A program made the translations under genes and the position numbers. Below are positions 50,153 to 55,835 of a stretch of 64,000 nt of DNA, piece by piece. This DNA is from Dromiciops gliroides. Its lineage: Eukaryota; Chordata; Mammalia; Microbiotheria; Microbiotheriidae. The stretch is from positions 83,330,882 through 83,394,881 of the forward strand of contig NC_057864.1 in NCBI RefSeq assembly GCF_019393635.1, given 5' to 3'. Position 1 is the stretch's first letter. Each line of letters opens with the position of its first letter. The notes beneath the pieces are model-generated. The model did no database searches. It was not told the origin of the DNA and saw only the letters and a list, made by a program, of their open reading frames with translations.

Positions 50153-52457
50153 CATTTCTGCATTAGTCATGTTATAAGAGAAAAATCAGAGCAATGATGA
50201 AAAACCTCAAAATAGAAAAAACAACAGCACCAAAAACAAAAGAAATAGTATAGTTCATTCAGCATCTATACTCCACAGTTCTTTTTCTTTTTTTTTCTTT
50301 TCCTGGATTTGGAGATCATCTTCTATCATGACTTCCCTGGAACTCTTCTGTACCATTGCATTGGTGAGAAGAATATAGTCCATCACAGTAGATCAACACA
50401 CAATGTTGATGATACTGTGTACAATGTTCTTCTGGTTCTGCTCATCTCACTCATCATCGGCCCACGCAGGACCCTCCAGGTTTCTCTGAACTCCTGCTCA
50501 TCATTTCTTACAGCACAATAGTATTCCATTGTATTCATATACCACAACTTGTCCAGCCATTCCCCAGTTGATGGGCATCCCCTCAAATTCCAATTCCTTG
50601 CCACCACGTACAGAGTAGCTATAAATATTTTTGTACATGTGGGTCCCTCTCCCCTTTCCACGATCTCTGGGGAAAAGACCCAAAAGCGGTATTGCTGGGT
50701 CAAAGGGTATGCACAAGTTTATAGCCCTTTGGGCACAATTCCAAATTGCTCTCCAGAATGGTTGGATCAGTTCACAGCTCCACCAACAATGCATTAATGT
50801 TCCAATTTTTCTACAGCTTCTCCAACATTTATTATTTTCCTTTTTTGTCATTTTAGCCAATCTGATAGGTGTCAGGTGGTACCTCAGAGTTGTTTTAATT
50901 TGCATCTCTCTAATAATTAGAGATTTAGAGAATTTTTTCCTATGGGAATAGATAGTTTTGGTTTCTTCATCAGAAAACTGCCTGTTCACATCCTTTGACA
51001 ATTTCTGAATTGGGGAATGATTTGGATTCTTATAAATTTGATTTAGTTCCCTATATATTTTAGAGATGAGGCCTTTATCAGAAGTACTGGCCTCAAAAAT
51101 TGTTTCCCAGCTTTCTGCCTCCCTTCTAATTTTGGATGCATTGCTTCTGTTTGTACAATAAATTTTTAATTTAATGTAATCAAAATCATCCATTTTGTAT
51201 TTTATAATATTCTCTATTTCTTGTTTGGTCATACACTGTTTTCCTTTCCAAAGATCTGAAAGGTAGACTATTCCTTCCTCTCCTAATTTACCTATGGCAC
51301 CACCTCTTATGTCTAAATCATGTTATCTATTTTGACCTTATTTTAGTATAAGGTGTAAGATATTGGTCTATGCCTAATTTCTGCCATACTATCTTCCAGT
51401 TTTCTCTGCAGTTTTTGTCAAATACTGAGTTCCTATCCCAGAAGCTGGAGTCTTTGGGTTTATCAAACACTACATTACTAGTGTCATCTACTACTGTGTT
51501 TCCTGTGACTAGCCTATTCCATTGATCCTCCACTCTATTTCTTAGCCAGTACCAGATAGTTTTGATGACTGCTGCTTTATAATAAAGCTCCAGGTTTGGT
51601 ACCACTAACCCACCTTCCTGTGCATTTCTTTTCATTATTTCCCTGGTAGTCTTGATTTTTTGTTTTTCCAGATGAATTTTGTTATTATTTTTTCTAGCTC
51701 TGTAAAATAATTTTAGGTAGTCTGATTGGTATGGCACTGAATAAGTAAATTAATTTAGGTAGTATTGTCATTGTTACTATATTAGCTCTGCCTATCCATG
51801 AGCAATTGATATCTTTCCAATTATTTAGATCTGATTTGATTTGTGTGAAGAGTGTTTGGTAGTTGTGTTCATAGAGTTCCTGGGTTTGTCTTGGCAAGTA
51901 GACTCCCAAGTATTTTATATTATCTACAGTTACTTTAAATGGAATTTTGATCTAGTATTTTTTGAGAAACCTACTAAGTACCTACTTGTCTTGATTAAAT
52001 GGGGTCCATACCTGACCGGCCCTGAGTAGGGTGTTGTTCTCAGAAGTTGAGCCTAGTTAAGGTTGATTGAATTGAGATCACAGGTGGACAACTCTCAGTA
52101 GAATGTGTCTTCAGATGTTGTGGACTTGGACATCAACAGGAGACCACTCTCCACCAATCAACTTGAAGAACCTCCCATTTTGGGGAGGAGGACAGGAATT
52201 AGGAAGTGGAGGCTTGTATTTTTTGGTCTGAGACATCAGCTGGGTGGCAGGACTTCACATGGGCTGTTAGGATAGCTAGGATTTCCATGCTATAAGGAAC
52301 TTGTTCTCAAATCTCTCTCTCTTCACTATCTTATAATATATCTTTTAATAAACCCTTAAAAGCCTAAAATCTTGCTGACTTCATGAGTGATTTTAGCCAG
52401 TTTCCCCCCAAAATTGGGGTGGACAGATTAGAACCCACATTTTGATTTTAAACAACA
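49950..52457 (+). mobile_element. 5' LTR of an older ERV, split by an L1
   Basis: Begins TGTGATAAAATAATGG (49950) and ends TTTAAACAACA (52457). Without the L1 and one TSD copy it is about 558 bp. Same family as the solo LTR at 10019. It shares only the '.aataaa.cttaaaagcctaa.tcttgct' zone with the LTR of the young ERV. Confidence 0.88.
49999..51963 (-). mobile_element. 5'-truncated L1 inside the LTR, antisense, 15-bp TSD
   Basis: Perfect TSD GATCTAGTATTTTTT at 49999-50013 and 51949-51963. On the minus strand it covers the last third of ORF2 and the 3' UTR. Broken frames at 50383-50703, 50501-51232, 51327-51737 and 51694-51909 preserve '[20 protein letters not shown]', '[20 protein letters not shown]' and the C-terminal 'YTVSSTL'. 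Dead, but closely similar to the full-length L1, so fairly young. Confidence 0.95.
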
Positions 52458-52545: not shown

Positions 52546-52561
52546 AAAAGTGCTGCTTTAA

Positions 52562-53177: not shown

Positions 53178-54170
53178 ATGAGTAGGCAGAGAAAGCAGAA
53201 GACCATCGAAAACTTCTTTGGGGGAAAGGTAGACCACAATACATCCTCAGAAGAAGAAGATAATAATAGGGTCAAAGCTCCAACTTCCAAAGCTTCCAAG
53301 AAAAATATGAACTGGTCTCAGGCCATGGAAGCTCTCAAAAGGGACTTTGAAGAGAAAGTAGGAGAGATAGAACGAAGATGTAGAGAAAGAGAGGAAGGAA
53401 TGGAAAGAGAAATGAGAGCAATGCAGGAGAGTCATGAGAAAAAAGTCAACAGTTTGAAAAGCCAAATGGAAAAGGAGATTAAAAAACTGTCTGCTGAAAA
53501 TAATTGCCTAAGAATTAGGATTGAACAAATGGAAGCTAGTGAGCTTATGAGAAACCAAGACACAGTAAAGCAAATCCAATTGAATGAAAAAATAGAAGGC
53601 AATGTGAAATATCTCCTTGGAAAAACAGCTGACCTAGAAAATAAATCTAGGAGAGATAATTTGAAAATCATTGGACTACCTGAAAACCATGACCAAAACA
53701 AGAGTTTAGACACCATCCTCCAAGAGATTGTGAGGGAAAATTGCCCTGATATTCTTGAAGCAGAAGCTAAAATAGAAATTGAAAAAATCCACCGATCACC
53801 TCCTGAAAGAGATCCCAAAAGGAAAACCTCCAGGAATATTATAGCCAAATTCCAGAACTCCCAGGTCAAGGAGAAAATATTGCAAGCAGCTAGAAAAAAG
53901 GAATTTAAATACTGTGGAGCTCCAATAAGGATAAAGCAAGATCTAGCAGCTTCTACATTAAAGGACCGGAGGGCATGGAATATGATATTCCAGAGGGCAA
54001 AGGAACTGGGACTACAGCCAAAAATCACATACCCAGCAAAACTAAGCATCCTCTTTCAGAGGCAAACATGGAACTTCAAGGAGAAAGAAGACTTTCAGGC
54101 ATTTGTTATGAAAAGACCTGAACTGAATAGAAAATTTGACTTTCAAATACAACACCCCGGAGAAGCATAA
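53178..54170 (+). CDS. Intact ORF1 of the HAL1-like element, 330 residues
   Basis: L1 ORF1-type RNA-binding protein, uninterrupted. N-terminus: a basic leader with QKTIENFF at residues 7-14, fitting the PCNA-interacting (PIP) consensus Q-x-x-I/L/M-x-x-F-F/Y. Residues about 45-130 are a heptad-rich coiled coil for trimerisation. Then the RNA-recognition domain (RRDNLKIIGLPENHDQ, near 160) and the C-terminal domain (NIIAKFQNSQVKEKIL; RRAWNMIFQRAKELGLQPK). The start at 53178 is the first ATG of the frame, and the downstream sequence matches ORF1 of the L1 at 32935. It has no reverse transcriptase partner within the element. Confidence 0.9.
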   Translation: MSRQRKQKTIENFFGGKVDHNTSSEEEDNNRVKAPTSKASKKNMNWSQAMEALKRDFEEKVGEIERRCREREEGMEREMRAMQESHEKKVNSLKSQMEKEIKKLSAENNCLRIRIEQMEASELMRNQDTVKQIQLNEKIEGNVKYLLGKTADLENKSRRDNLKIIGLPENHDQNKSLDTILQEIVRENCPDILEAEAKIEIEKIHRSPPERDPKRKTSRNIIAKFQNSQVKEKILQAARKKEFKYCGAPIRIKQDLAASTLKDRRAWNMIFQRAKELGLQPKITYPAKLSILFQRQTWNFKEKEDFQAFVMKRPELNRKFDFQIQHPGEA

Positions 54171-54299
54171 AAAGATAAACAGGAAAAAGACTTCATGAGG
54201 GATATTAAAAGATCAAACTGTTAACATTCCTATATGGGAAGATAATACAGAGGACACAGGTCTGAACTGAATACGAAGGGAAGTTATGTTTTGTTCTTT

Positions 54300-54391
54300 G
54301 TGGGGTGTCTTATGTATGGGGCCGGATTTGGGCTTGGGGCCTCCTGGGTCCAGGGCTGGTGCATTGTCCACTGTGCCACCTAACTAACCCA
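54300..54391 (-). repeat. SINE fragment in the linker, A-to-G enriched on the plus strand
   Basis: Recognisable through 'gccggattt...ctcctgggtcc.gggctggtgc...ccactgtgccacctaac'. Relative to the family wording 'gaggccggatttgaactcagg', 'ctgaatcc' and 'tttatcc', about seven plus-strand As read G. Confidence 0.75.
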
Positions 54392-54534
54392 TAATGACAT
54401 CCTTAAAATAGGGTTGAGGTGTAGGAGAAATAGACTGGGGGAGGGGGAAGGGGAGAGATGGTCTGGGGAGAGGTTATTCATATGAAGGAAACAAGAAAAA
54501 AGCTTATGGAGGGGAGGGGAAGAGGGGGAAGGAA

Positions 54535-55020
54535 TTGGGGAGTGATTGAACCTTAATATCATCAGAATTGACTCAAAGAAGGACTAACATACATACTCAA
54601 GTGGGTATAGTAATATATTTTGCCCTGAAGGAGGGGAGGGAGATAAGGGGGGGGGAGGGGAAGGAGGGAAGGGCAGATTCTGGGAGAGAGTAGTAAAAAG
54701 CAAAATACTTTCAAGGAAGGTGAAGACGTTCTGCATAACAGCACAAGTATGAAATATTGAATTGCTTGATTTCATAGGGAGGGTTGAGGAGAGAGGGAGG
54801 AAGAAAATTTGGAACATAGAATTAGCTCAAAGACCTTAAACTCATCAGAATTGGCTCATGGAGGGAATAACATTCACACCCAGTTGGGAGGAGTAATCTA
54901 TCTAACCTTACAGGAAGTATGAGGGGAAGAGGATAAGGAAGGAAGGGTGGAAAAAAAGGGAGTGCAGAGTGGGGAAGGGGACAGTCAGAAGTAAAATACT
55001 TTTGAGGAGGAATAGTTTAA
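54535..55020 (+). repeat. Duplicated inter-ORF linker (two diverged copies)
   Basis: Copy A (54535-54725) and copy B (54836-55020) share 'catcagaattg.ctca', 'taacat.cac.c', a G-rich tract, 'gggcagatt/gtgcagagt', and 'aa.taaaatactttc/tgagga'. Both correspond to the single linker segment at 34330-34560 in the full-length L1. Confidence 0.75.
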
Positions 55021-55063
55021 AAGAAGATGGAAAATAGAGTAAATATCATGGGAAGGGAATAGG

Positions 55064-55246
55064 ATGGAGGGAAATAGTTTTGATGACTTTGCTGGGTTAA
55101 TACGAAGAAAATTCTTTGTCAAGTTTAAGGTACATTATTTAGGGTATGATGAACAGGATACTATTAGAAAAACCTGGAAAGACCTACATGAACTGAAGCA
55201 GAGTGAAATGCACTGTATACAAAATAACAGCAATAGTGTAAAATGA
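55064..55246 (+). CDS. Mini-ORF2, 60 residues (ORF2 start fused in frame to its C-terminal end)
   Basis: Starts MEGN, as the L1 ORF2 does at 34600, then passes directly to sequence ending YDEQDTIRKTWKDLHELKQSEMHCIQNNS, the counterpart of the ORF2 C-terminus ([24 protein letters not shown]). The junction is near 55076. Endonuclease, reverse transcriptase and Cys-rich segments are all gone. The frame may be incidental, but it is open from the native start to a stop. Confidence 0.6.
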   Translation: MEGNSFDDFAGLIRRKFFVKFKVHYLGYDEQDTIRKTWKDLHELKQSEMHCIQNNSNSVK

Positions 55247-55819
55247 CCTGCTGGGAAGCATGTGGTTATTTTCAGCAAGGCAATGGTCCAATATAACCCT
55301 GAAGGACTATGAAAATGACAACCCATCTACAGAGAAAGAAGTGATAGTATCTGAAATAGTTGGAAACACATTTTTTTTTTCTTTTCTCTCTTTTTTTTCT
55401 TTTTTGGTGAGGCAATTGGGGTTGGGTGGCTTGCCTGGGGTCATGTGGCTGGTGGGTGTTGGGGGTGTGGGGCTGAATTTGGGCTCGGGTGCTCCTGGTT
55501 CCAGGGCCAGTGCTCTGTCCGCTGCACCACCTAGCTGCCCCTGGAAACACATTTTTTAAAAAAAATGTTTTTTCTCTTTGACAATTCCTCAGTCTGAAGT
55601 TTTGGGAGTTTTTTGACTGTTTTTTCCTCACAACCTAGCTAATGTGGGAATGTTTTCCATGACTACTCATGTATAATTTATTTTGAAATGCTTGAGTTCT
55701 AGTGGGTGGGGGTGGGAATAGAGGAGGAATAGAAGTTGGAACAATTTTTTTTTAATTGATGTTAAAATTTGTTTTTACATATATTTTGGAAAATAAAATT
55801 CTATTCTAAAAAAAAAAAA
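55247..55819 (+). terminator. HAL1-like 3' UTR and poly-A
   Basis: Shares 'cacaacctagctaatgtgggaatgtttt' and 'gatgttaaaatttgtttttacatatattttgg' with the L1 tail at 17505-18135. AATAAA near 55793 is followed by the A-tail. Contains the edited-looking SINE. Confidence 0.85.
55361..55557 (-). mobile_element. SINE in the HAL1-like 3' UTR, 16-bp TSD, strongly A-to-G changed
   Basis: TSD TGGAAACACATTTTTT at 55361-55376 and 55542-55557; element 55377-55541. The first 18 bases of the body ('ggtgaggcaattggggtt') and the last 30 are normal. The middle (about 55425-55520) has about 18 A-to-G changes on the plus strand among about 27 differences from the family wording. Confidence 0.92.
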
Positions 55820-55835
55820 AAAAGTGCTGCTTTAA

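Follow-up and report, generated by a model that had tools for sequence, protein, structure and literature searches.

The window, a stretch of 64,000 nucleotides from Dromiciops gliroides, contains a full-length HAL1-like retrotransposon that carries two SINEs in antisense orientation. The features are as follows, with position 1 being the first letter of the window:

52546..52561, plus strand: left TSD of HAL1, AAAAGTGCTGCTTTAA
52562..55819, plus strand: full-length HAL1-like retrotransposon (half-L1, ORF1 only), the carrier of the SINE, with a flanking 16-bp TSD and an L1-type ORF1
53178..54170, plus strand: intact HAL1 ORF1 of 330 aa, with L1 RBD-like and dsRBD-like domains
54305..54390, minus strand: SINE2, an older truncated SINE, antisense to HAL1 and A-to-G changed on the HAL1 strand
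55361..55376, plus strand: left TSD of SINE1, 16 bp, TGGAAACACATTTTTT, also found at the identical loci, slightly altered in some of them
55377..55405, minus strand: T-rich tract, the poly(A) tail of SINE1 in antisense
55406..55541, minus strand: body of SINE1, antisense to HAL1
55542..55557, plus strand: right TSD of SINE1, 16 bp, TGGAAACACATTTTTT
55820..55835, plus strand: right TSD of HAL1, its first As merging with the poly(A) tail

ORF1 matches the Pfam families PF02994 (E=9.3e-16) and PF17490 (E=1.9e-10), and the ORF list of the window element holds no ORF2. The sole plus-strand ORF of at least 70 aa located 3' of ORF1 within the element is 99 aa long (55260-55559) and crosses SINE1. HAL1 (half-L1) elements are characterised by an L1-type ORF1, a poly(A), a TSD and the absence of ORF2, and the window element shows all of these. 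What sets it apart is that its 3' part carries two SINEs in antisense. On the minus strand at 50501-51909 there are ORF fragments which, judged by eye, resemble L1 ORF2.

The SINE is presumably of the WSINE1 type, an assignment made by general likeness; the features seen in it are a TSD and a tail. WSINE1 elements are CORE-SINEs of Australian marsupials, abundant in the Tasmanian devil, and comprise a tRNA part, a short CORE of 41 nt and a poly(A) (PMC3403934).

An earlier note on this DNA drew attention to dense A-to-G changes on the plus strand of SINE1, and the comparison with a hand-made SINE consensus bears this out. There are 29 differences: 18 A-to-G, five C-to-T, three G-to-A, two C-to-G, one T-to-G and no T-to-C. 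In plus-strand reading, 18 of 26 As are changed to G and none of 32 Ts to C (Fisher P = 3.5e-9), so that an equal excess of T-to-C, which was looked for, is not found. The A-to-G changes lie at 55424, 55425, 55429, 55437, 55445, 55447, 55451, 55454, 55455, 55461, 55462, 55470, 55482, 55483, 55487, 55498, 55517 and 55521. The consensus is identical to the majority of 70 free SINEs at all but five positions, none of them among these 18 sites. Site 85 (55491) is probably a nineteenth edited A: most copies have G there, while 19 of 69 free SINEs and 17 of the 73 older copies have A. Compared with the majority sequence of the window's 19 remaining SINE matches (those scoring at least 60, with lower scores left out), SINE1 shows 35 differences, 20 of them A-to-G and two T-to-C, and each of those 19 SINEs has three A-to-G changes or fewer.

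The ends of SINE1 were described as normal, and they are. Its 16-bp TSD is perfect, as was also noted. The TSD had been taken to bear on age, but it goes back to the arrival of SINE1 in a HAL1 ancestor and is shared with the other loci, and thus does not date the window copy. In a consensus built from ten early copies the tail (55377-55405) is rich in (GTT)n, and in the window copy it is a mixture of C and T; the SINE1 tail appears to have turned over within the HAL1 lineage.

Copies of the SINE1 insertion in the genome

When the genome was searched with the 142-bp SINE as query, the best 40 matches listed, out of 2716 first-pass candidates, included at least eight identical loci, the window among them. 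In all eight the SINE occupies the same HAL1 site and is identical over 142 bases; the TSD of SINE1 is slightly altered in two (L002 and L003). Six of the seven other loci are 99.1-99.7% identical to the window HAL1 over the 3' 1.8-1.9 kb, and the seventh (L002) matches over 0.95 kb at 98.6%. By these copies, and by the intact ORF1 and perfect HAL1 TSD of the window copy, the HAL1 lineage to which it belongs is recently active. Because seven other loci carry an identical SINE at the same HAL1 site, the window copy inherited its Gs within HAL1. An editing event confined to one copy is accordingly rejected, and with it the earlier proposal that the RNA of the window copy itself was edited and then inserted here; other copies of the insertion bear from 5 to 18 changes.

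The aligned set comprises 110 SINE-bearing copies of one insertion, 37 young ones and 73 on older flanks. The young set consists of the identical loci and of matches to the young flanks joined to an unedited SINE (30 of the best 40), after a repeat of the window copy (L043, the same as L006) was dropped. The older copies were found with joined older flanks plus the unedited SINE (best 40) and with two older copies as queries, which added 20 and 13 new ones from the best 40 matches of each. Copies were classed as old or young according to the query that retrieved them and to their flank distance. Since the flank queries carried an unedited SINE, any search bias runs against the observed effect. 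Each copy retrieved with the young flanks and the unedited SINE has 16-18 changes (among 30 of the best 40 listed). The sample of free SINEs was reduced from 71 to 70 by one duplicate, with match spans of about 110 bases or less and with 39 HAL1-embedded matches, recognised by motif, left out.

At the 26 A sites, free SINEs have a mean of 0.4 A-to-G changes per copy (range 0-2, n=70 sampled), older embedded copies 9.4 (5-16, n=73, with 14-16 in five copies) and young embedded copies 17.2 (16-18, n=37). A-to-G exceeds T-to-C in 110 of 110 embedded copies versus 6 of 70 free SINEs. Four sites (31, 39, 41 and 115) read A in 37-39 of 40 old copies and G in 34-37 of the 37 young. No copy with fewer than five A-to-G changes is present among the 110 aligned, and for this reason the first five changes cannot be placed after the SINE insertion; a single burst may describe these five. 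A query made of early-lineage flanks and the unedited SINE returned 34 matches, out of the best 40, that were already in the copy set.

The mean flank distance to the young consensus, with T-tract columns excluded, is 5.9% for 60 old copies and 0.15% for the 37 young. Taking these 97 copies together, A-to-G changes increase as flank distance to the young consensus drops (rho -.76). There is no trend inside the groups (rho -.17, P=.18 for the 60 old; rho.19, P=.27 for the 37 young), so that the time order is shown between old and young and not within either group. A rough dating, given little weight here, would put the old copies at about 13 Myr, from the flank distance of 5.9% in 60 copies, and the young ones at about 0.3 Myr; the rate used is 0.0045 per site per Myr (PMC3403934). 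HAL1 copies with an empty site are also present, at least 40 of them at 89-92% to the joined flanks, and in the 30 such loci examined the match stops at the SINE and resumes behind it. Taken together, the copies indicate that the A-to-G changes built up within the HAL1 lineage.

Can the direction of individual changes be read from trees? Parsimony on the full FastTree tree counts 82 A-to-G, 161 G-to-A and 25 T-to-C changes in the SINE, and on the flank-only FastTree tree 127, 255 and 47, respectively (97 rows reduced to 89 unique ones; T tract and A/T-run columns dropped). On such short alignments the result is ambiguous, as parsimony leaves repeated A-to-G change and reversal unseparated. Furthermore, sites in the SINE combine freely, with all four combinations present for 72 of 78 pairs among 40 old copies, and flank sites do likewise (29 of 36 pairs, T-tract columns excluded), which suggests that recombination may have mixed the copies.

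Distribution of changes along HAL1 and in SINE2

Apart from the SINE, the 3' 1.9 kb of HAL1 (53900-55822) has three A-to-G changes at 606 A sites, and seven T-to-C. This count compares the consensus of 30 empty-site loci with that of the young SINE-bearing copies over 1693 columns, after columns that were thinly covered or below a 70% majority had been dropped. The contrast with SINE1 (18/26 versus 3/606) gives a Fisher P of 6e-26, with reference ancestors that differ between the SINE and HAL1 sides. In the 73 older copies, A-to-G and T-to-C are even in about 225 bases of flank (49/4248 and 53/4218, T-tract columns excluded) and uneven in the SINE (143/1167 versus 61/2479). When all 110 copies are pooled, the flank counts, again with T-tract columns excluded, become 164/6619 for A-to-G versus 50/6328 for T-to-C; the A-to-G count comes mostly from columns 55286, 55592 and 55607, which divide old from young, two of them by A-to-G and one really by G-to-A. 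Immediately behind the SINE, the first ten bases of the right SINE1 TSD contain five As, four of them kept in every one of the 110 copies and the fifth in 109.

SINE2 is present in 23 of the 30 empty-site loci and is therefore older than the SINE1 insertion. Among 20 copies, SINE2 reads G where the majority of free SINEs has A at sites 64 (19 copies), 76 (18), 77 (16), 81 (20), 92 (19), 93 (20) and 111 (19), and it retains A at sites 71, 97, 115 and 123 (20 of 20 at each). SINE1 agrees with SINE2 at these sites except at 93, where it has T, and at 115, where 34 of 37 young copies have G. No fixed T-to-C change occurs in the well-aligned part of SINE2 in these 20 copies; in the left part, which is poorly aligned, T and C differ at a single position (site 54), and C is the prevailing base of free SINEs there. 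A query with unedited SINE2 retrieved only changed copies (20 of the best 40) and no less-changed stage. These copies show that SINE2 reached a like end state independently.

A length difference is found at the left edge of SINE2 (about 54300-54307), where most older SINE2-bearing HAL1 copies have about 10-15 extra bases and the young lineage has none.

Neighbour context and CpG decay

ADAR enzymes favour G as the 3' neighbour of the edited A. A preference of this kind is not seen in the 73 older copies, in which the mean G fraction, over few sites, is.60 before A,.33 before G,.33 before T and.27 before C. For the 5' neighbour it is.73 after T,.48 after A,.28 after G and.12 after C in the same copies, and the difference between T/A and C/G is significant (rank test P =.0018; permutation P about.0006). 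The published 5' preference of ADAR is A=U>C>G (PMC2790459). Thus the neighbour preference that the earlier note had suggested checking holds for T and A over C and G, while C and G themselves are ranked in the reverse order. This reversed order, the lack of a 3' G preference and one unchanged TAG near the SINE end (55533) speak against ADAR. As to a sparing of duplex ends, sites 4, 8, 123 and 127 (of 136) are unaltered in all 77 copies counted and also in the 73 older ones, but most of them lie outside the published end zones; the SINE-internal site 71 is likewise unaltered in 77 copies, save for one C. The young consensus, with 18 A-to-G, four C-to-T, two C-to-G and one G-to-A, has no APOBEC-type cluster of G-to-A or C-to-T. 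Much of the context, though not all of it, is that of ADAR.

Where an A-to-G change falls beside a C, a new CpG is created. In the 73 older copies, C-to-T is found at 20 of 75 cells where C precedes G and at 16 of 569 where C precedes A; the P value of this contrast (3e-11) is computed by cells of related copies, which are not independent. Three of the five C-to-T changes of the window copy (sites 30, 38 and 40) are of the new-CpG kind, and site 68 is an original CpG. The new CpGs are thus associated with frequent decay to TpG. Because the C of a CpG made by A-to-G change is often T, the G preceded the T and was located in genomic DNA.

Origin of the changes and known systems

The reading we favour, with a probability of about 0.8, is that ADAR repeatedly edited HAL1 RNA while it was paired with SINE RNA in trans, and that the edits were fixed via reverse transcription; we infer ADAR, the duplex and the partner RNA from DNA alone. 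A HAL1 ancestor received the SINE in antisense within its 3' part, so that a segment of the HAL1 RNA was complementary to SINE transcripts of the sense strand. These two RNAs would then have paired in trans, and within the duplex ADAR would have deaminated As on the HAL1 side. An inverted SINE that could act as a partner in cis was looked for in the window HAL1 and not found, which is why the partner is placed in trans. Inosine is read as guanosine by reverse transcription, and this step would turn edited As into Gs in the new DNA copy. Some edited daughters may have become new sources, and many such cycles would lift the number of changed SINE As from about 5 to 18, a rise whose time order is given by the flanks of the copies. 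New CpGs arising beside C then often became TpG in genomic DNA, as their association with C-to-T indicates, and the second, older antisense SINE of the same HAL1 arrived at a like end state. What survives of the earlier idea of ADAR editing followed by retrotransposition is the restriction to the HAL1 strand and to the SINE, the mostly ADAR-like context and the carriage by an RNA-mobile element; its single-event history does not.

Several other explanations of the same data have to be considered. It is unlikely that the inserted SINE was from the outset a member of a subfamily rich in Gs, with the older copies regaining As afterwards by mutation or by gene conversion from free SINEs. The least-changed copies do already have five A-to-G changes, parsimony permits many G-to-A changes, and the free SINEs are a sample of 70; however, none of these 70 has more than two A-to-G changes, and a G-bearing source, which the earlier note had raised as an objection, is encountered only as the HAL1 lineage itself. 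The shift from A in old to G in young copies at sites 31, 39, 41 and 115 also argues against such a source, and frequent conversion is opposed by site 93, where T is found in 1 of 70 free SINEs versus every one of the 60 old and 37 young embedded copies. The history nearest to that of the earlier note, in which one founder was edited in a single burst and passed its Gs on unchanged, would fit the eight or more identical loci and the lack of an unedited copy among the 110, but copies of the same insertion range from 5 to 18 changes and include intermediates with 14-16, which makes this history exceedingly improbable.

Selection on the antisense SINE, for example for weaker pairing with SINE RNA or for the removal of stop codons, is very unlikely to account for the pattern. 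A-to-G changes do weaken pairing, the window copy has lost eight of the ten HAL1-strand stop codons of the unedited consensus and gained one, and the 99-aa ORF traverses the SINE. The frame of that ORF, however, is stop-free even in the unedited consensus and so was not opened by A-to-G changes, and the lost stops are spread over two frames; moreover, C-to-T would weaken pairing as well, yet it is seen in 1 of 1073 C cells outside original and new CpGs in young copies. We give as little weight to a bias acting on DNA or during reverse transcription, such as transcription strand asymmetry, GC-biased gene conversion, misreading of U, or polymerase eta at WA. Transcription can push A-to-G above T-to-C and polymerase eta has a 5' W preference, so both would fit in part. 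A bias of this type should run along HAL1, where neither the consensus comparison nor the flanks of the older copies have an A-to-G excess, and GC-biased conversion would yield T-to-C as well.

How does repeated ADAR editing of HAL1 RNA compare with known systems? ADAR hypermutation of RNA viruses, as in the Drosophila sigma virus (PMC2790459), similarly produces clusters of A-to-G on one strand, with a 5' preference and a large share of the As changed in a defined region. In contrast to these viruses, the HAL1 changes are fixed in host DNA, in a retrotransposon, and are graded over copies, and the 5' neighbour that is avoided most is a base other than G. Inverted Alu pairs in human transcripts are edited by ADAR and resemble the present case in having SINE dsRNA as the target, but there the edit is in RNA and the partner in cis, whereas in the HAL1 SINE the edit is in DNA and the partner seemingly in trans (PMC4982230). 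DNA editing of retrotransposons by APOBEC (PMC2873906) also leaves a deaminase trace in genomic copies; it gives G-to-A through deamination of C, in contrast to the A-to-G of the HAL1 SINE. That study searched genomic traces for clustered A-to-G changes; it reports RNA editing for the cDNA traces, together with DNA editing of the APOBEC type, with no graded series in the portion of its text consulted (PMC2873906). Nor was a report of a graded A-to-G series in a retrotransposon found in the editing and retrotransposon literature, as covered by titles and the openings of abstracts, mostly of freely accessible papers.

A retrotransposon lineage of a mammal has probably been under lasting, directional mutation by RNA editing, with SINE RNA in trans repeatedly guiding ADAR, two independent insertions rewritten alike and the edits inherited. 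If true, A-to-I editing has been written back into a germline genome and has driven the evolution of a retrotransposon subfamily, a role which for Alu 'has not yet been determined' according to a review (PMC4982230). It would also mean that HAL1 RNA formed a duplex with sense SINE RNA in the germline. From the DNA of the graded copies alone, one can follow which sites were preferred and how the CpGs later decayed.
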